From positions 1 through 34,864 of the forward strand of contig CACYCE010000001.1 in assembly GCA_902772915.1 (NCBI GenBank): a stretch of DNA of 34,864 nt, read 5' to 3'. Source of the stretch: an uncultured Erysipelotrichaceae bacterium. Its GTDB lineage: Bacteria > Bacillota_I > Bacilli_A > RFN20 > CAG-288. The position numbers and the translations under genes were made by a program. Below the pieces are notes generated by a model. It saw nothing but the letters and a program-made list of their open reading frames with translations, was not told where the DNA came from and ran no database searches. This document shows positions 8,779 to 34,696 of this stretch, in pieces. Positions within the stretch are counted from its first letter, which is position 1. Each line of letters begins with the position of its first letter.

Positions 8779-10515
8779 AGAAGATAATAACTTCTCACAA
8801 GCTTCTTTAATTAGTTTTTCATCGCCTTTAATAACTTTTCTATCGAAAGTAACAAATCCGTTATATTCAGTTTCGACGTCGCTTAATTGAGTGAGAATTA
8901 AGCCCGATAAACCGAGACTTTGTACTTGCTTATAAAAAACTTTGGAGATTAATTTAACATTCTTTTTAGTAAAGGATTTAAAAGAGAAAGCCACTTGATG
9001 ACCAAAAAAACCTTTGAATAAGGAATGATTCTTAACTTTGTATGAAACCCCTCCTCCTTCCGAGATGATAAAACATCTATTTTTCTTATCTTTTCTTTTC
9101 AAGGAAGGAAGAGTATAGGTGTGAATAGAGAAAAAATCTGAATTAGCATCGTACCAACCTGAGGCGGTATCGAATAAGAAAGAAGGGTATTTAGCTTTCA
9201 ATTGGGAATAGATTAAAGAAGGATCGAATTCACCCCAGCCTTCGTTGAAGATAGTCCATATTAAAATCGAAGGGTGATTTTTTAAATTATCTAAATAAGA
9301 ATTGGCTTCAAATTTAAAATTTTCGCGCCCTTGTTTATCTTCTCTCGACATCTTTTTGTAATTGATATTTTCTTCTTTAGATTTAGAAGGAAATAGACGC
9401 GGTATAGCGATGTTGTAAAAATGATAAGACCTTCCTCCATTAGGGAAATCTTGAATTAGATAGATACCTTCTTTATCCGCGAGATAATAGAAATAATCCA
9501 TTTCTACTTTGACGTGGATTCTTAGGCAATTGAAACCTAATCTTTTAGCTAATTGGATATCTTTTAAGAAATCAGAATAGCTTTTAGGGGTTAAATTGCC
9601 ATCTAAATAATAGCCTTGATTTAATAAACCTAATAAGAATTGTGGTTTGTTATTTAAATATATCCTTCTTATCCCTTGTTTATCTTTTCTTATTTCAATT
9701 TTTCTCAAGCCGAAATAAGATTCGACTTCATCATCTTCAAGAACGACTCGCACTTTATATAAATAAGGGGAAGAGATATCCCAAGGAGAAAAGTGAGGTA
9801 AATCTATTTCCATATCCATATTAGTTATAAATTCATATTCTTTCTCATCTATATAAATTTTTCCTTCTTTTTCATCTTTGTTGGAATGAATATTAAATTT
9901 TAAAGTTCTCTTATCGTAAGAAGGATATAAATCTAATTTAGTTATATAAGTAGAGGGGACTGATTCCATGTAGACATTTTTGTAGATACCTGACGAGGAT
10001 GAATAGGAAAAAGAATGAGGCTTAAGAACCTGTTTACCTCGAGAATAATAAGATGAATCTGTGTAATCTTTCACTTCAACTCGCAAATTGAAAGAGCGTT
10101 TAAAAACTTCAACTTCCACTTGAAAAGGCAAATATGGAAAGTGGTTTTCTTTAACTTCTTTTTCGTCAACAAATACTTTGCAGACTTGATCAACACCTTC
10201 AAAATTAATGATTATTTTGTCTTTAGTAAAATTAGAAGGAACATTAATTTTTTTAGAATAGATGTAAGTAGCGCCTTTAGAAAAAGCTTTATTTACTCCT
10301 GAAAGAGATGATTCTATAGCGTAAGGAATCATGACATTGCCTTGATAAACTACTTTGCCATTCTCAATTATAGAAAGATCCCACTTACCATTTAAACAAA
10401 TGTAAGAATCTCTCTTAAATTGCATTCTGGGGTAGGAAGAAAGAGGAATAGAATTAAAATCAACTCCTTCTTGTAGAGAAGAATACAATTTACATTTGTT
10501 GATTTCTTTTTTCAT
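8764..10515 (-). CDS. Glycoside hydrolase family 2 (beta-galactosidase/beta-glucuronidase-like)
   Basis: A 583-residue GH2 enzyme with no signal peptide, so it should hydrolyse an imported beta-glycoside in the cytosol. Layout: jelly-roll sugar-binding domain (about 35-190), Ig-like domain (about 190-275) and TIM barrel (about 285-580). Asn424-Glu425 in F-N-E-G-W-G is the likely acid/base; Glu486 in I-S-E-G-G-G is the likely nucleophile. The T-Q-L-S-D-V-E block near the end is typical of Firmicute GH2 proteins. AAGGAGGT lies 5 bases before the ATG, inside the MFS gene, which this gene overlaps by 26 bases; translation is probably coupled. The sugar specificity (galactoside, glucuronide, mannoside) cannot be set by eye. 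Confidence 0.9.
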   Translation of the reverse strand: MKKEINKCKLYSSLQEGVDFNSIPLSSYPRMQFKRDSYICLNGKWDLSIIENGKVVYQGNVMIPYAIESSLSGVNKAFSKGATYIYSKKINVPSNFTKDKIIINFEGVDQVCKVFVDEKEVKENHFPYLPFQVEVEVFKRSFNLRVEVKDYTDSSYYSRGKQVLKPHSFSYSSSSGIYKNVYMESVPSTYITKLDLYPSYDKRTLKFNIHSNKDEKEGKIYIDEKEYEFITNMDMEIDLPHFSPWDISSPYLYKVRVVLEDDEVESYFGLRKIEIRKDKQGIRRIYLNNKPQFLLGLLNQGYYLDGNLTPKSYSDFLKDIQLAKRLGFNCLRIHVKVEMDYFYYLADKEGIYLIQDFPNGGRSYHFYNIAIPRLFPSKSKEENINYKKMSREDKQGRENFKFEANSYLDNLKNHPSILIWTIFNEGWGEFDPSLIYSQLKAKYPSFLFDTASGWYDANSDFFSIHTYTLPSLKRKDKKNRCFIISEGGGVSYKVKNHSLFKGFFGHQVAFSFKSFTKKNVKLISKVFYKQVQSLGLSGLILTQLSDVETEYNGFVTFDRKVIKGDEKLIKEACEKLLSSLEVD

Positions 10516-11863
10516 TTTTAACCTCCTTGAAATAGAAGAATAGAGGAATACAAGTTAACAATAAGAATAAAGAACCTACTAGGTAAGAATAATTAGAAGG
10601 AAGAGGAGATGACACTCCAAAATCTCCTATGTAGGTTTTACCAAAAGAGTTATTTAAGGCTGAGCCGATAAAAGGTCCTATACACATAGGTAAAGCTACC
10701 ACAAATAGCATTCTTATACCCATGAACGAACCTTCTTTTCCAACAGGGATATATTCTCTTACTAAAGCATTTAAAATAGTTGGTACTCCTATGCAACCAG
10801 TAATCATTATTAATCCTGCAAAACAGGCGTAAAAAGTCCTTAAAGAAGAATCTCCTACAAAAGGAATAAACATCATGATTAAAGTACCTGTGAACATAAT
10901 ACCTAAGCTAGGAATAATCATTTTGTTTTTACTAAATTTATCTCCTAGAATTCCAACTAATACTGATAGAGCACTCCCACCAATTAAAGCTACGGCCATA
11001 ACTATGACAAAAGGTGATAAGAAACTAGTTGAAGTAGAAGATATTTCACAAGTTTTTTCAATATAAACTAATAAATAAGGGAAGAAAATTTGCTGTGCGC
11101 AAGCGAAAATGAAGTAGATCGTAAGAATTAAATATAATTTCTTATTATTCACAACTGTCTTAGGTTTAAAACCATCTAAGACCGCTCCTAAATAAGTTGT
11201 ATCTTTCTTACCTTCATCTTTTTCTTTAGGTATTAAAAATAGGGAAATAATACCTACTAAAGAGACAATTCCTCCAAGAATATAGAAAAACAAATCCCAT
11301 CTATATCCACCTTGTTTAGTAGTTAAATTGTTAAATCCAACAAAGATTATTAACATCGAGATTAGAGAAAGAATCTGTAAAACTCCTTCAACTTTCCCTC
11401 TTTTTGCATCGTCAACGTGACTAGTTACATAAGCGTTGAATGCCGCGTCGTTACTACTTGAACCAAAGAAGGTCATCACGCAATCGATAATAACGACCAT
11501 CGTCGCTGCTAAAAATGAAGACATTACGATAAATGAAGTAGAAGAATTTACATTAAATAGACCAAATGAGGCGGTAGCGATACCCCAAATTATGTACCCT
11601 ATGGAAATGAATAATTTTTTCTTGCCGATTCTATCAGTTAAATTACCTATGAAGATAGTAGTTAACGTCGCCACTGCAGCTGAAGCAGCAGTAGTAATAG
11701 CAATCATCAAATTGTAATCAAAACCACCATCCTTAGAAGTAAAATTGAGATAAGTAATGTAAGTATTTAAATACATGTTCTCAATAGACCAAGCAAATTG
11801 ACCCGCTAGACCTACTAAGATGAAGACAAACCACATACGTACACCGACTGGGCTTTTTGACAT
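10490..11863 (-). CDS. MFS transporter, probable glycoside importer
   Basis: A 457-residue, roughly 12-helix protein of the major facilitator superfamily. The loop between helices 2 and 3 has the expected G-N-L-T-D-R-I-G-K-K motif. It resembles the sugar/glycoside cation symporters often paired with glycosidases, and it overlaps the GH2 gene by 26 bases, so the pair is likely a take-up-and-cleave unit for a beta-glycoside. I chose the ATG at 11863: GGAGG lies 7-8 bases upstream, and the in-frame GTG 15 bases earlier is part of that ribosome-binding region. A TATAAT (in GCATATAATTT) about 30 bases upstream is a plausible -10. Confidence 0.88.
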   Translation of the reverse strand: MSKSPVGVRMWFVFILVGLAGQFAWSIENMYLNTYITYLNFTSKDGGFDYNLMIAITTAASAAVATLTTIFIGNLTDRIGKKKLFISIGYIIWGIATASFGLFNVNSSTSFIVMSSFLAATMVVIIDCVMTFFGSSSNDAAFNAYVTSHVDDAKRGKVEGVLQILSLISMLIIFVGFNNLTTKQGGYRWDLFFYILGGIVSLVGIISLFLIPKEKDEGKKDTTYLGAVLDGFKPKTVVNNKKLYLILTIYFIFACAQQIFFPYLLVYIEKTCEISSTSTSFLSPFVIVMAVALIGGSALSVLVGILGDKFSKNKMIIPSLGIMFTGTLIMMFIPFVGDSSLRTFYACFAGLIMITGCIGVPTILNALVREYIPVGKEGSFMGIRMLFVVALPMCIGPFIGSALNNSFGKTYIGDFGVSSPLPSNYSYLVGSLFLLLTCIPLFFYFKEVKNEKRNQQM

Positions 11864-11974
11864 ATATTTATCCTCCACTGATTAAATTATATGCCTATAT
11901 TTAAATTAATTATTTTATTCTCAGCATAAAATATGGTTTTTTTATTGTAATCATTGATAAAAATATAAGATTAA

Positions 11975-12511
11975 TTATTCGAATTCGAAAATTAAAGGTT
12001 TAGTGTGACTCGCTTCAAAAGAGGAGAATTCTTGGTTAGTTAAATCCATAAAATAAGTGGAGATTATAGCCATAGCTCGAGAATGGCAGACTAACAATAT
12101 ATCTTGATTGCGATATTTATCTATTATTTCATCTAAAAAGTTATAGACACGTTGAGCTACATCTAGATAACTCTCACCATGAGGATATCTCAAAAAGAAA
12201 CTCTTTTTTCTTTCGATGTATTCAGGATCAATTCTCGAAGTAGATTCGTAATCGCCGTAATCCATCTCAATTATTCTATCGTCGATGATAGTCTTTAAAT
12301 CAGGATGGTAATTTTTAATCTCTTTCAAAGTCATTTGCGCTCTGGATAGAGAAGTTGTAAAAGAAATATCAAAGTGCACATCTTTCAAATTGTAAGCTAG
12401 TTCTTTAGCTTGTTTGATGCCGTTTTCATTTAAGGGAATATCGACTTGACCTTGGATAATTTCTCTCTTGTTCCAGTCAGTCTCCCCGTGTCTACAAACA
12501 TATATTTTCAT
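11975..12511 (-). CDS. Histidine phosphatase family protein (phosphoglycerate-mutase-like)
   Basis: A 178-residue histidine phosphatase. The catalytic R-H-G-E is at residues 7-10 (His8 phosphorylated), followed by T-D-W-N; Arg57, Glu82 and the second histidine His143 (V-C-H-S-R) complete the usual active site. The size and motifs fit the GpmB/CobC/PhoE-type branch, which acts on small phosphorylated metabolites; the substrate is not predictable. No Shine-Dalgarno is visible. It is transcribed alone and divergently from the Sel1 genes. Confidence 0.85.
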   Translation of the reverse strand: MKIYVCRHGETDWNKREIIQGQVDIPLNENGIKQAKELAYNLKDVHFDISFTTSLSRAQMTLKEIKNYHPDLKTIIDDRIIEMDYGDYESTSRIDPEYIERKKSFFLRYPHGESYLDVAQRVYNFLDEIIDKYRNQDILLVCHSRAMAIISTYFMDLTNQEFSSFEASHTKPLIFEFE

Positions 12512-12605: not shown

Positions 12606-13163
12606 ATGAGTAGTAAGAAAAACAAGTTCAACGAAGAAGAATGTATAGCTCGAGCTAAAGAAGGCTCAGAAAAGGCTATGCTTGAATTAGCTAATAGATA
12701 TTCTTTAGGTATAGGTGTTAAAGAAGATGAATCCAAAGCTTATTATTATTCTTTACAAGCTTCCAAATTTAACCACGCTGATGGAGTATACGCTTTGGCC
12801 TGCTGCTACGATGGTGGAATAGGTATTGAAAAAGATGAAAAGAAGGCAGTTGAATTATTAGAAAAAGCTGCTTCTTTAGGCTCAAAAGAGGCTAAAACCG
12901 ATTTAGCTTCTTATTATTATTCGGGGACTAATACTTTAGAGATGAATAAACAAAAAGCTCTAGATTTATATAATCAAGCCGCTCAAGAAGGTGACTCTTT
13001 TGCTATGTACTTGTTAGGTACCTTCTATGAAAAAGGCGATATGGTCGAAAAGAATGTAGATAAAGCTATTGAATTTTATAAAAAGGGTTACGATTTAGGA
13101 GATGATTTATGTAAGGCATCTTTAGAAAAATTAGGCCTTATACCTGTTCAACTATATAGGTAA
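12606..13163 (+). CDS. Sel1-like repeat protein
   Basis: A 185-residue cytoplasmic protein built from about four Sel1-like (TPR-related) repeats, each with the alternating pattern A-x-x-x-L-A-x-x-Y ... G-x-G-V/I-x-x-D-x-x-K-A. Such repeats form a helical scaffold for binding other proteins. A Shine-Dalgarno AAAGAGG precedes the ATG, with a short GAAGAT/ATCTTC hairpin just upstream. The next gene starts 2 bases after the stop and is of the same type, so they form an operon. The partner or process is unknown. Confidence 0.85.
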   Translation: MSSKKNKFNEEECIARAKEGSEKAMLELANRYSLGIGVKEDESKAYYYSLQASKFNHADGVYALACCYDGGIGIEKDEKKAVELLEKAASLGSKEAKTDLASYYYSGTNTLEMNKQKALDLYNQAAQEGDSFAMYLLGTFYEKGDMVEKNVDKAIEFYKKGYDLGDDLCKASLEKLGLIPVQLYR

Positions 13164-13165
13164 AT

Positions 13166-15253
13166 ATGAAGAAATTAAGTCGTGAAGAATTAGCTTTTTA
13201 CATTAATAAATCTACTAATGGAGATGATAGTGCTTCTCTCTTTTTAGGTAACTATTATTATTCAATCAAAGATTTGTATATGAGTAATTATTTCTTAACG
13301 CGTAGTGCTGAACAAGGTAATAGAGAAGCTATAGAAAATATCCTAAATAACAACGGTACTTTAAATTTAAATATTAAATATCAAGAAAAAGATAAGCAAC
13401 TTTTTATTACCTGGGCTAAAAAAGGTTTGGAATTAGATGATTTTTCTATCGCTCCTTATTATTTATATAGCGCTTATTCCCTAGGGTATGGAGTGGAAGC
13501 AGATGGTAAAAAAGCTAAGGAATATTTAGATATGGCGTGTATGCAAGGTAATTTCTTTGCTTTTTTTGCTTTTGTAGCGGAAATGTACTCCTCATTAATG
13601 GCTTTTTCTACTTATCAATTTTTACCTTACATTCAAAAAGATAAACTTAGAGACGATCACGATTGTATGGAAGACTTCCAGAACTTGAAAAAATATTACA
13701 AAGCTTACACTCAACATTTAGATAGTAAATATTCATCTTCTGATGATTTTCAAAGAAACAGCGTTAAATTAACTCTAGCGAAAATCTATATAGACTTAGG
13801 TGAAAAAGACGATCAAAAAGAAGCTTTTGATATAATTGAAAAAATAATTAACGAGGGATTCTTCTACGAAGATTCATTCTATTTATACGCTACATGTCTA
13901 TATAGAGGTATAGGTACTAAAAAAGATGTCAAAAAGCTTAGAGAATTCTTTTTAAAACACAAGAAAAAATTACTTAAATCCGAGTCTTATGCAGCTTTTT
14001 GTGCGGAGAATAGAATCTGTTTACATTATCAGGAAGATGCTTCGATTTTAAAAATAGATAAATGGAATTTTAGAGCAGTATTTGAACATCATCTAAATCA
14101 TAAATATAAAGAAGATATTTACACCACTTTATTCAATTATTTATTAGGTGTTTATTTCTTTTATGGTTTCGGATGTGAAGTTAATTACGAATCCTCATTT
14201 AAATTGCTAAAAAAAGTTGCTGATGGAGTAGGATATCCTGATGCCATGTATTATGTAAGTTATATGTACAAGCATGGTTTAGGAACTAAATACAATTCTA
14301 AAGAAGGGCGCAAATATGAATCTAGAGGTATTACTTTAGGTTCAGATCTCTTAATCATGAACCTTAAAAAAGAATATCAAAATAGTTTTGACAATGAACT
14401 TTTAACCTTGCTTAAATACAATTACGGTCCGGCTTTAGTCTACCAAGGAAGCTATTATTTGCACGCTGATAAAGGAGGGAAAAAAGGAATTGAACTTGCT
14501 AGACAATATTATAAAAAAGCTATGTCTATAGGCTATAAACCTGGATATAAATATTACATTTTATCTTGGTTATACAAAATGGAAAATGATTCTGCTCTAT
14601 TAGAAGCTGAAAAAGGTATAGAAAAAGCCAAAAAGGATCACGCTGATGCCTATTATGCTTACGCTTTTTATGAAATGTTCAATTCTAATTATTTAGAAGC
14701 ATATAGATATTTAGCTCTAGGAGCTAGGCTACATTCGCGAAATTGCATAGATGCCATGATGGATTTCTTTTCGTCTTTTAATTACAAAGTTATGCTTAAA
14801 AGATACGGAAAGATTGCAGTTGAATGCAAAGCTACTTACGGGGAAGTAAAATATTACGAAGTTATCAACGCCGATGAAGAATCTGCTCAAGACTTAACTA
14901 AATTAATCGAGCATTCTGTTAAAAGGGACAATTTGAATTACGCTTATTTAGAAGCGGCCCTGCTTTCATCTAGTTCCGATCCTAAAGATCGTAAAATTGC
15001 AAAAAAGAACGCTGATTATTTAATAAAACACAACTCTTATTTAGGCTATATAATTAAAGGCTTTTTAGCTACTTACAAAGAAAATAATACTAAGGAAGTC
15101 GAAGAATCTATAAATATGGTAAGAAAATTGGCTGAAACTAGATTAGGAGTTAATTTAGCCACTCACTTCTATCAACAATATCAAAACGAATCAAAAAATA
15201 AGATTAGAGAAATAGAAGAAGAATTAAAAAAGTGCGCTGAAATCAAGTGTTAA
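13166..15253 (+). CDS. Large Sel1/TPR-repeat protein
   Basis: A 695-residue protein without signal peptide or membrane segment. Degenerate Sel1 repeats run along most of its length (clear ones near residues 90-125, 225-260, 320-385 and 420-480), and the last 150 residues are plain alpha-helical. It starts 2 bases after the smaller Sel1 gene and lacks its own clear Shine-Dalgarno, so translation is probably coupled. The two may form a scaffold complex. The stop codon sits in the loop of a bidirectional terminator. Confidence 0.82.
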   Translation: MKKLSREELAFYINKSTNGDDSASLFLGNYYYSIKDLYMSNYFLTRSAEQGNREAIENILNNNGTLNLNIKYQEKDKQLFITWAKKGLELDDFSIAPYYLYSAYSLGYGVEADGKKAKEYLDMACMQGNFFAFFAFVAEMYSSLMAFSTYQFLPYIQKDKLRDDHDCMEDFQNLKKYYKAYTQHLDSKYSSSDDFQRNSVKLTLAKIYIDLGEKDDQKEAFDIIEKIINEGFFYEDSFYLYATCLYRGIGTKKDVKKLREFFLKHKKKLLKSESYAAFCAENRICLHYQEDASILKIDKWNFRAVFEHHLNHKYKEDIYTTLFNYLLGVYFFYGFGCEVNYESSFKLLKKVADGVGYPDAMYYVSYMYKHGLGTKYNSKEGRKYESRGITLGSDLLIMNLKKEYQNSFDNELLTLLKYNYGPALVYQGSYYLHADKGGKKGIELARQYYKKAMSIGYKPGYKYYILSWLYKMENDSALLEAEKGIEKAKKDHADAYYAYAFYEMFNSNYLEAYRYLALGARLHSRNCIDAMMDFFSSFNYKVMLKRYGKIAVECKATYGEVKYYEVINADEESAQDLTKLIEHSVKRDNLNYAYLEAALLSSSSDPKDRKIAKKNADYLIKHNSYLGYIIKGFLATYKENNTKEVEESINMVRKLAETRLGVNLATHFYQQYQNESKNKIREIEEELKKCAEIKC

Positions 15254-32180: not shown

Positions 32181-32255
32181 GCCCAGTTAGCTCAGTGGTA
32201 GAGCTATCGGCTGTTAACCGATCGGTCGTAGGTTCAAGCCCTACACTGGGCGCCA
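32181..32255 (+). tRNA. tRNA-Asn (anticodon GTT)
   Basis: A 75-base cloverleaf with encoded CCA. The acceptor GCCCAGT/ACTGGGC is perfect, the anticodon arm is ATCGG-CTGTTAA-CCGAT, the T loop TTCAAGC, and discriminator G is as expected for Asn. It is followed after 6 bases by tRNA-Glu, probably co-transcribed. Confidence 0.97.
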
Positions 32256-32261
32256 TTAGTT

Positions 32262-32338
32262 GGCCCGTTGGAGAAGTGGCTTAACTCACATGCCTTTCAC
32301 GCATGCACTCATGGGTTCGAATCCCGTACGGGTCACCA
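32262..32338 (+). tRNA. tRNA-Glu (anticodon TTC)
   Basis: A 77-base tRNA with encoded CCA. The acceptor GGCCCGT/ACGGGTC has one G-U, the anticodon arm is CATGC-CTTTCAC-GCATG and the T arm ATGGG-TTCGAAT-CCCGT. The sequence looks like a normal Firmicute tRNA-Glu. Confidence 0.96.
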
Positions 32339-32640: not shown

Positions 32641-32905
32641 ATAATTTTCATATAAAAGAGTTATCTATATATTGGGATGAACTGTAAAGAATTAGATTAT
32701 GATTATGACAAAGATAATATATTAGGTAATTTTTAATTATCTAATGATGCTATGGTATTAGTAGATGGTAAATAGGATGCTATGGCAACAATAAATTTAT
32801 TTAAAAAGATAATATGAATGAAAATGGAGGTGCTTCTAATTGTTCAATTTCATGATATAATATATAATAAATATTTGCGATTTTTATTATGAGGGAAGTA
32901 ATTAA
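32641..32905. other. Gene-free stretch, possibly a second decayed reading frame
   Basis: No intact gene. On the plus strand 32671-32817 reads as one frame interrupted by TAA, TAG and TGA (for example N-D-A-M-V-L-V-D-G-K-stop-D-A-M-A-T-I-N-L-F-K-K), which looks like a mutated gene remnant but has no recognisable family. The end holds GAGGGAAG, the ribosome-binding site of the next gene. Confidence 0.3.
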
Positions 32906-34675
32906 ATGACTAAAGGTCTAATATTCACTAATAATAAATGTATAAGTTGTAATAAATGTGTAAGAATATGTAGTTCGTTTGGCGCAAGTATTTCTTATAA
33001 TCGACCTAACAAGAATTCAATAAAAATTGATTCATCACGTTGTATTAATTGTGGAGCGTGTTTAGATATTTGTGAGAAGAAAGCTAGAGATTACATTGAT
33101 GATACCAATACTTTTTTTAACGATTTAAAAAATAATGAAGAAATCTCATTACTTGTTGCGCCATCATTTATGGCTAAATATAAAAACCAATATAAAAAAA
33201 TACTTAGTGCTTTAAAGCATTTAGGAGTTAAAAAGATATATCCAGTATCACTTGGTGCTGATATATGTACTTGGGCCTATCTAAAACTAATTAAGGAAAA
33301 AGGATATGTTGGTAGAATTTCTACAACTTGTCCTGTTGTAGTATCTTATATTGAGCATTGGCACAAAGAATTAATTCCTATGCTTATGCCTGTAAAAAGT
33401 CCACTCATGTGTTTGGCTACATATTTAAGAAATGTTCTTGGTACTAAAGAAAATTTAGCTTTTATCGGACCTTGTATTGGCAAAAAAAGTGAAATGGAAA
33501 TATTTCCATCTTTAGTAAAATACAATATCACATTCCCAAAATTAATAGAATACATAGATAATAACAATATTACAGCTGATGAACAATTTGATGGTTTTGA
33601 TGAAACATTAGGATCTTTTTATCCAGCACCAGGGGGTCTTGCGGATAATTTAAGATGGTTCTTAGGTGATGATATTCCAATTAGAATAATATCAGGGAAA
33701 ACATATTTATTTCAGTATTTAGATAAATTAAATATTAATGATATAAAAGTTAAGAATTATATTTTATATGATTTATTAAATTGTCAAGAAGGTTGTTTAG
33801 AGGGTACAGCAAAATCATATATTGATTCTATTGATGATTTAAGTGTATTAGAAATCAATGAAATAAAGTCTAAAGCTAAAAATCAGGATCCTAAATCTCC
33901 GTTTAATAAAACATTATCAACAGAAGATAGATACAATAATTTATGTGAACAGTTTTCTATGCTTGACTTGAATGATTATTTGATGGAATTTAAAGATTTA
34001 ACTTACAAATGTAAAGTATCTATCCCTAAAAAGGAAGAAGAGGAAATAATATATAAATCATTACATAAGGAAGATCAAAAATCTAGAAATATTAACTGCT
34101 CTTTTTGTGGGTATAATACATGTAGAGATATGATGCTTGCAATATATAATGGTTTTAATACTAAACATAATTGTTGTTATAGTGAAAAGGAGGAAGCAAT
34201 TTATTTATCTAAAATGTCTTTTTCAGATACTCTTACAAGTGTAATGAATAGAAATGCATATGAAAGAAAAATAAAATCATTGTATGCAAATAAAAAATCT
34301 TTATCTGTAATAGTTGCTGATGTCAATGGCTTAAAAATGACAAATGATAATTTTGGACATCAGGCTGGAGATAGACTGATAATTGAAACTGCTAAATCTT
34401 TTGCAAATATATTTGGTGTTGAGAATGTATATAGGGTTGGTGGAGATGAATTTTTAACAATTTTAGGTGATTATACAAAGCTTGAAATAGATCATGATTT
34501 AAAGCTAGTCAAAGAATACTTAAAAAGTCAAAATGTCAGTGTTTCAATTGGATATTCATATATTAATAAATATGATGGAGAATTTAATAATTTATTGGAA
34601 ATTGCTGATAAACTAATGTATAAAGATAAAGAACTATATTACGAAACAAATGGTTTGAAAAGAAGAATAAATTAA
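32906..34675 (+). CDS. Sensory [FeFe]-hydrogenase-like protein with C-terminal GGDEF (diguanylate cyclase)
   Basis: A 589-residue four-part fusion. Residues 1-60: two [4Fe-4S] ferredoxin motifs (Cys12/15/18/22 and 46/49/52/56). Residues about 75-305: [FeFe]-hydrogenase large-subunit domain with reduced H-cluster motifs T-T-C-P (Cys142), G-P-C-I-G-K-K (Cys190) and C-Q-E-G-C (Cys293, Cys297). Residues about 395-425: another Fe-S motif (Cys398/401/406/423). Residues about 438-585: GGDEF domain with D-T-L-T, metal Asp472 and an intact G-G-D-E-F (512-516); no RxxD inhibitory site is seen just upstream. It probably senses H2 or redox state and makes c-di-GMP. GAGGGAAG precedes the ATG. Its ATA-rich codon use looks different from the left half of the window. 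Confidence 0.9.
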   Translation: MTKGLIFTNNKCISCNKCVRICSSFGASISYNRPNKNSIKIDSSRCINCGACLDICEKKARDYIDDTNTFFNDLKNNEEISLLVAPSFMAKYKNQYKKILSALKHLGVKKIYPVSLGADICTWAYLKLIKEKGYVGRISTTCPVVVSYIEHWHKELIPMLMPVKSPLMCLATYLRNVLGTKENLAFIGPCIGKKSEMEIFPSLVKYNITFPKLIEYIDNNNITADEQFDGFDETLGSFYPAPGGLADNLRWFLGDDIPIRIISGKTYLFQYLDKLNINDIKVKNYILYDLLNCQEGCLEGTAKSYIDSIDDLSVLEINEIKSKAKNQDPKSPFNKTLSTEDRYNNLCEQFSMLDLNDYLMEFKDLTYKCKVSIPKKEEEEIIYKSLHKEDQKSRNINCSFCGYNTCRDMMLAIYNGFNTKHNCCYSEKEEAIYLSKMSFSDTLTSVMNRNAYERKIKSLYANKKSLSVIVADVNGLKMTNDNFGHQAGDRLIIETAKSFANIFGVENVYRVGGDEFLTILGDYTKLEIDHDLKLVKEYLKSQNVSVSIGYSYINKYDGEFNNLLEIADKLMYKDKELYYETNGLKRRIN

Positions 34676-34696
34676 AGTCTCGTTTGAGACTTTTTT
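34676..34696 (+). terminator. Terminator of the hydrogenase-like GGDEF gene
   Basis: AGTCTC-GTTT-GAGACT followed by five more Ts, directly after the stop codon. Confidence 0.92.

Follow-up and report, generated by a model that had tools for sequence, protein, structure and literature searches.

The label 'putative' is attached to the sensory [FeFe] hydrogenases of groups C and D since, to our knowledge, no signal output has been demonstrated for them. Among the [FeFe] subtypes distinguished by HydDB, C1 is associated with a kinase, C2 with chemotaxis and C3 with a phosphatase, the C2 type being the MCP-linked hydrogenase designated 'chemotactic (putative)'; the only class linked to a diguanylate cyclase in the same scheme, 2c, belongs to the [NiFe] and not to the [FeFe] enzymes (PMC5037454). 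The sensory HydS proteins of groups C and D have, moreover, been described as carrying a Cx2Cx4Cx16C motif (PMC8163306). Here we describe a gene, located within the 34,864-nucleotide stretch of DNA analysed (the window), whose product joins a sensor of this kind to a GGDEF domain in a single chain and probably translates the hydrogen or redox status of the cell, with no intermediate, into a second messenger. The source is a rumen bacterium reported as a member of the order Acholeplasmatales, with an assembly of 1.27 Mb in 58 contigs that is 93% complete.

Architecture of the fusion protein

Table 1. Position of the fusion gene, its signals and its predicted domains in the window
Feature	Position	Strand	Basis
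Hydrogenase-like sensor/diguanylate cyclase gene, complete, monocistronic, 589 aa (start ATG 32906, stop TAA 34673-34675)	32906..34675	+	ORF and Pfam
Shine-Dalgarno-like GAGGGAAG, 7 nt 5' of ATG	32891..32898	+	Sequence reading
Two [4Fe-4S] ferredoxin motifs, residues 9-60	32930..33085	+	Pfam Fer4_7, cysteine positions
H-domain, residues 83-300	33152..33805	+	PF02906 and alignment with group A/B/C/D relatives
C-terminal Fe-S motif Cx2Cx4Cx16C (C398, C401, C406, C423)	34091..34177	+	Motif spacing
Linker from Fe-S motif to GGDEF, about 15 residues, without PAS	34178..34219	+	
GGDEF diguanylate cyclase domain, residues 439-576	34220..34633	+	PF00990
Intrinsic terminator of the fusion gene	34674..34693	+	
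tRNA-Asn and tRNA-Glu, upstream of the fusion gene; context, no working part	32181..32338	+	

The product of the fusion gene (Table 1) is predicted to consist, in this order, of two [4Fe-4S] ferredoxin motifs, an H-domain, a Cx2Cx4Cx16C motif and an intact GGDEF domain. This agrees with a preliminary description of the locus, which had proposed two ferredoxin motifs, an H-cluster domain with a complete set of cysteines, a further Fe-S motif and an intact GGDEF domain with no RxxD site nearby. The ferredoxin region is recognized by Fer4_7 (residues 11-60, 34.1 bits; Pfam) and contains four plus four cysteines (C12/15/18/22 and C46/49/52/56), all eight of which also occur in a relative from Acetoanaerobium noterae (see below). 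The H-domain is matched by Fe_hyd_lg_C (PF02906, residues 83-300) with 90.8 bits against a gathering cut-off of 22.1, and its three motifs, L1 STTCP (C142), L2 GPCIGKKSE (C190, K193) and L3 LNCQEGC (C293, C297), align C142, C190, C293 and C297 with the H-cluster cysteines at group A positions 300, 355, 499 and 503; the CN-contacting lysine (K358) is retained, as is the bridging cysteine. The alignment with group C/D hydrogenases that had been suggested brings out the hallmarks of these groups, as listed in PMC8163306, with C299 replaced by T (STTCP), M353 by G and M497 by L.

The spacing of the C-terminal Fe-S motif is exact, and a PF04060-like FeS match to residues 396-424 scores 17.3 bits, under the cut-off of 23 (Pfam). 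The PAS domain that follows this motif in the C1/C3 type is absent here, Pfam assigns nothing to the stretch from residue 424 to residue 439, and the chain continues into a GGDEF domain that scores 73.2 bits (PF00990, cut-off 23.8) and has intact cyclase motifs (DVNGLK 472-477, GHQAGD 484-489 and GGDEF 512-516). An RxxD I-site was not found just upstream of GGDEF; this inhibitory site is optional, being absent from some active diguanylate cyclases. An AlphaFold2 model of the protein calculated from the single sequence was not usable (pLDDT 33.6). Elsewhere in the window, two neighbouring genes contain Sel1 repeats (12606-15253) and bear no relation to the fusion gene.

Relationship to MCP-linked sensors

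The best relative of the fusion protein found by tblastn in a plasmid collection is the A. noterae protein (261 bits vs 125), which consists of 631 aa (L214:8004-9887) and in which a Fer4-H-FeS sensor is followed by an MCPsignal domain (90.8 bits). The two proteins are 36% identical over residues 10-423, have all 16 cluster cysteines in common and share the LNCxEGC and PCIGK motifs; they also pair with 100/100 support in a tree that includes sequences of groups A, B, C3 and D. In this tree, the MCP-linked lineage has the A. noterae protein as its one representative, and the references were given their group letters from neighbourhood and motifs instead of by the HydDB classifier. Because its partner is MCP-linked, which is the architecture of HydDB C2, we assign the sensor to a C2-like lineage with an exchanged output: judging from the sequences compared, GGDEF has replaced MCP on a C2-type sensor. 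The MCP output that characterizes C2 is accordingly absent from the fusion protein, and a motif scan of the source genome found no MCP, flagellin or histidine-kinase motifs; in a genome of this content, a GGDEF output fits better than an MCP. The preliminary description had regarded a direct GGDEF output as unusual for a family usually linked to PAS or kinase modules; the kinase, chemotaxis and phosphatase outputs of the HydDB subtypes bear out its judgement of the output, but the sensor belongs with the MCP-linked (C2-type) lineage and not with a PAS-type one.

Most members of the Acholeplasmatales searched have hydrogenases, including a Fer4-H-FeS protein of ~560 aa with a PAS-like C-terminal region; in Monoglobus and Ruminococcus albus, this group C3 type is accompanied by a group-B-like hydrogenase and by a SpoIIE phosphatase. 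Placement of the fusion protein in PAS-type group C (C3) is ruled out by its lack of PAS, its low identity to the group C3 proteins of the order (26-32%) and its position in the tree, where it forms a long branch outside them. Placement in group B1, suggested by the best NCBIfam match (TIGR04105), is rejected too, as this match reaches 125 bits against a cut-off of 450 and the aligned group B sequences are without the C-terminal cluster.

As read from translations, the MCP-linked hydrogenase gene of A. noterae is flanked by a GGDEF/HD-GYP-like gene (L214:3929-6358) and a GGDEF/EAL-like gene (10024-12351), so that a connection between the C2-like sensor lineage and c-di-GMP may exist in this organism also. 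NZ_CP154629.1 (2.63 Mb) is listed as a plasmid and, given its size, is probably the A. noterae chromosome.

Proposed redox gating and the supply of the H-cluster

The reading that we favour, with a probability of roughly 0.55, is that the protein is a cytosolic one-component diguanylate cyclase gated by Fe-S/redox state (H2 or ferredoxin), with a sensor drawn from the MCP-linked C2-type lineage. Provided that the clusters are loaded, electrons would enter either through the H-domain, with H2 as the donor, or through the Fer4 clusters, with reduced ferredoxin as the donor, and would oxidize or reduce the C-terminal [4Fe-4S] cluster indirectly, this cluster serving as a relay; the change at this cluster would travel through the short linker and alter the pairing of GGDEF domains in a presumed dimer, so that c-di-GMP synthesis would track, in one direction or the other, the H2/redox poise of the cell. 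Product feedback on the cyclase is probably absent, since there is no I-site. In TamHydS, reduction by H2 in the physiological pH range was confined to the N-terminal cluster, a stronger reductant being required for the C-terminal one (PMC13104023); the relay proposed here may therefore need a different cluster potential.

Redox gating is ranked above strict H2 sensing because the supply of the 2Fe cofactor is uncertain. That H2 binding itself is the signal, with a complete H-cluster supplied through a maturation route that is as yet undescribed or was overlooked here and the protein an [FeFe] counterpart of [NiFe] 2c, is possible but clearly less probable. The four H-cluster cysteines and the CN-contacting lysine are consistent with it, as is TamHydS, which is also without the usual proton path and is still active (PMC8163306). 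In addition, the source genome retains an intact operon for a canonical, bifurcating HydCBA (TSCCPGW, MPCTAK, MACPGGC) as well as a group-B hydrogenase, for which reason an H-cluster source would be expected. Group-A-strength matches to PF02906 (E<=1e-70) occur in 215 of 273 genomes of the order. Against strict H2 sensing stands the search for maturases, in which HydG (TIGR03955) was detected neither in a chosen set of 15 genomes nor in any of the 273 genomes of the order. HydF (TIGR03918) passed its curated cut-off in none of the 15, and 147 genomes of the order gave no match to it at E<=1e-40; both searches detected the Thermotoga maritima control. For HydE, which was checked by motif in the source genome only, a radical-SAM motif scan found no HydE-like ORF and no HydG-like one, the six radical-SAM ORFs of this genome resembling RlmN, MtaB, MiaB, RimO, HemW and a PflA-type activase when assigned by eye.

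As HydG, HydF and HydE-like genes were not found, strict H2 sensing is only putative, and the fusion protein may always lack the 2Fe part of its H-cluster: the binding residues would allow an H-cluster in the H-domain, whereas the genome content says perhaps not. The H2 or redox input originally proposed fares accordingly, its redox part being backed by the 16 conserved cluster cysteines and its H2 part weakened by the missing maturases. For the order as a whole, the [FeFe] hydrogenases either receive a 2Fe cofactor from another route or work without this cofactor. [FeFe] hydrogenases without maturases have been described in a few species (PMC3226654) and in Desulfitobacterium (PMC9888536); Izemoplasma has hydEFG (PMC8397711).

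Directly 3' of HydCBA, the source genome has a gene for an Mrp/NUBPL-type Fe-S P-loop ATPase (L064:14510-15349); at twelve further loci from the order, whose sequences extend little past HydA, no such gene was seen after HydA. The HydA of the source genome retains TSCCPGW, unlike 7 of the 12 sampled HydA proteins of the order (L103, L105-L110), in which TSCSPGW carries a serine in place of a cysteine that, in group A, is a ligand of the H-cluster cubane (CpI C300). This replacement fits the idea that some HydA proteins of the order may no longer carry a normal H-cluster. We consider it unlikely that all of the furthest-reaching elements hold together, namely a C2-type sensor re-wired from chemotaxis to c-di-GMP, direct H2-to-c-di-GMP signalling and maturation of the [FeFe] hydrogenases of the order independently of HydE/F/G.

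c-di-GMP signalling in the source genome

The source genome is predicted to possess a c-di-GMP signalling pathway. GGDEF is found in eight of its proteins (the fusion included), EAL in four and an HD-GYP-type domain in one; no PilZ receptor was found in the genome, and a c-di-GMP-I riboswitch is detected with 60.2 bits (G000:C41:12437-12517, minus strand). The preliminary description had named two gaps that would speak against its proposal, of which the first, a lack of maturases, is real for HydG, HydF and a HydE-like gene, whereas the second, a lack of any c-di-GMP receptor or phosphodiesterase, is contradicted by the EAL and HD-GYP-type proteins and by the riboswitch. On its 3' side, the latter is directly followed by an operon whose predicted products are secreted or membrane proteins (putative), an AAA-type protein, a SipW-like signal peptidase (NF046067, 9e-10, under the cut-off) and an EAL protein; just 5' of it, two genes encode secreted proteins whose signal peptide is of the TYAW type and resembles those of SipW substrates. 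The region (L149:3294-14802) has the appearance of a matrix-fibre locus under c-di-GMP control in a Mollicute, the fibre part being our interpretation, and the product of the fusion cyclase, if linked to this riboswitch as we presume, would act through it on the SipW-like/fibre-protein operon and hence on matrix or biofilm.

A second copy and the rarity of the fusion

A second copy of the gene is present in a goat-rumen MAG labelled Acholeplasmatales (contig JAFSWG010000039.1, L009). It covers residues 236-589, spans the H-domain/FeS/GGDEF junctions and is 96% identical in protein sequence; at the DNA level it matches the window from 33609 to 34694 with 97.9% identity, exactly to the end of the terminator, beyond which the flanks are unrelated. 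The neighbouring genes of the goat-rumen copy have best protein matches of 44-55% in the source genome. Because identity stops at the terminator and the flanks are unrelated, the gene seems to have passed recently, as one unit, between species of rumen Acholeplasmatales, although the position of both copies near contig ends calls for caution. Viral spread was considered and rejected, there being no relative in viral contigs.

No other fusion of GGDEF to an H-domain or FeS motif was found in 279 genomes of the order, in 395 genomes of the class or in 392 phylum-level genomes, where all matches came from the same class. A scan of 84,980 species genomes, sensitive to close relatives only, returned the goat-rumen copy alone; fusions outside the class may exist. 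The full-text literature searched, which includes few subscription journals, yielded no description of an [FeFe] hydrogenase/GGDEF fusion, and the locus is apparently an output exchange on a known sensor type that has so far gone undescribed.

Between the two copies, the H/FeS part differs by 10 nonsynonymous and 2 synonymous changes and the GGDEF part by 5 and 5, a difference that is not significant (p = 0.17); the sensor part thus appears to evolve fast. This ratio, the long branch and the occurrence in two genomes only would suit a decaying sensor whose GGDEF domain is constitutive or controlled by expression level alone, yet every cluster cysteine has been kept despite the divergence, all 16 also in the A. 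noterae protein, and decay seems to us rather improbable. An assembly chimera of a hydrogenase fragment with an unrelated GGDEF gene, which the distance of 190 bp from gene end to contig end and the start of the second copy at a contig edge might suggest, is ruled out for practical purposes by the goat-rumen MAG, as the junctions recur in two different MAGs at the identity given above and the reading frame is unbroken. Since the second MAG has the junctions too, the fusion is no one-off assembly join; it is real, and chance is excluded.

Discussion

If the protein is indeed a redox-gated diguanylate cyclase, H2/redox control extends to c-di-GMP in gut Mollicutes. Because a single chain joins the sensor to an enzyme whose product, c-di-GMP, is simple and quantitative, output switching can be measured in one tube, so that the question of whether the H2/redox state at the H-domain or at the C-terminal cluster switches the output becomes addressable. 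The missing maturases raise a separate question, that is, how, or whether, the [FeFe] hydrogenases of this genome become active.

Group D HydS proteins (TamHydS type) resemble the fusion protein in having a C-terminal 4Fe-4S motif without PAS and the M497 to L replacement, but are distant from it in the tree and have no output domain in the same polypeptide. The PAS-bearing C3 HydS proteins, with SpoIIE phosphatase output, share its two Fer4 motifs, H-domain, Cx2Cx4Cx16C motif and M353 to G replacement; at identities of <=32%, they differ by a PAS-like region after the FeS motif and by a phosphatase encoded in a separate gene. The putative [NiFe] group 2c follows the same proposed logic, a hydrogenase sensor controlling c-di-GMP synthesis (PMC5037454), but belongs to an unrelated hydrogenase class, whereas sensor and cyclase form one polypeptide here. 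The nearest system is HydDB C2, as represented by the A. noterae protein, which is taken as C2 on the basis of its MCP domain and not of the HydDB classifier: it has the same two Fer4 motifs, the same H-domain with LNCxEGC and PCIGK and the same Cx2Cx4Cx16C motif, and differs in its output, which is MCPsignal there and GGDEF in the fusion protein.
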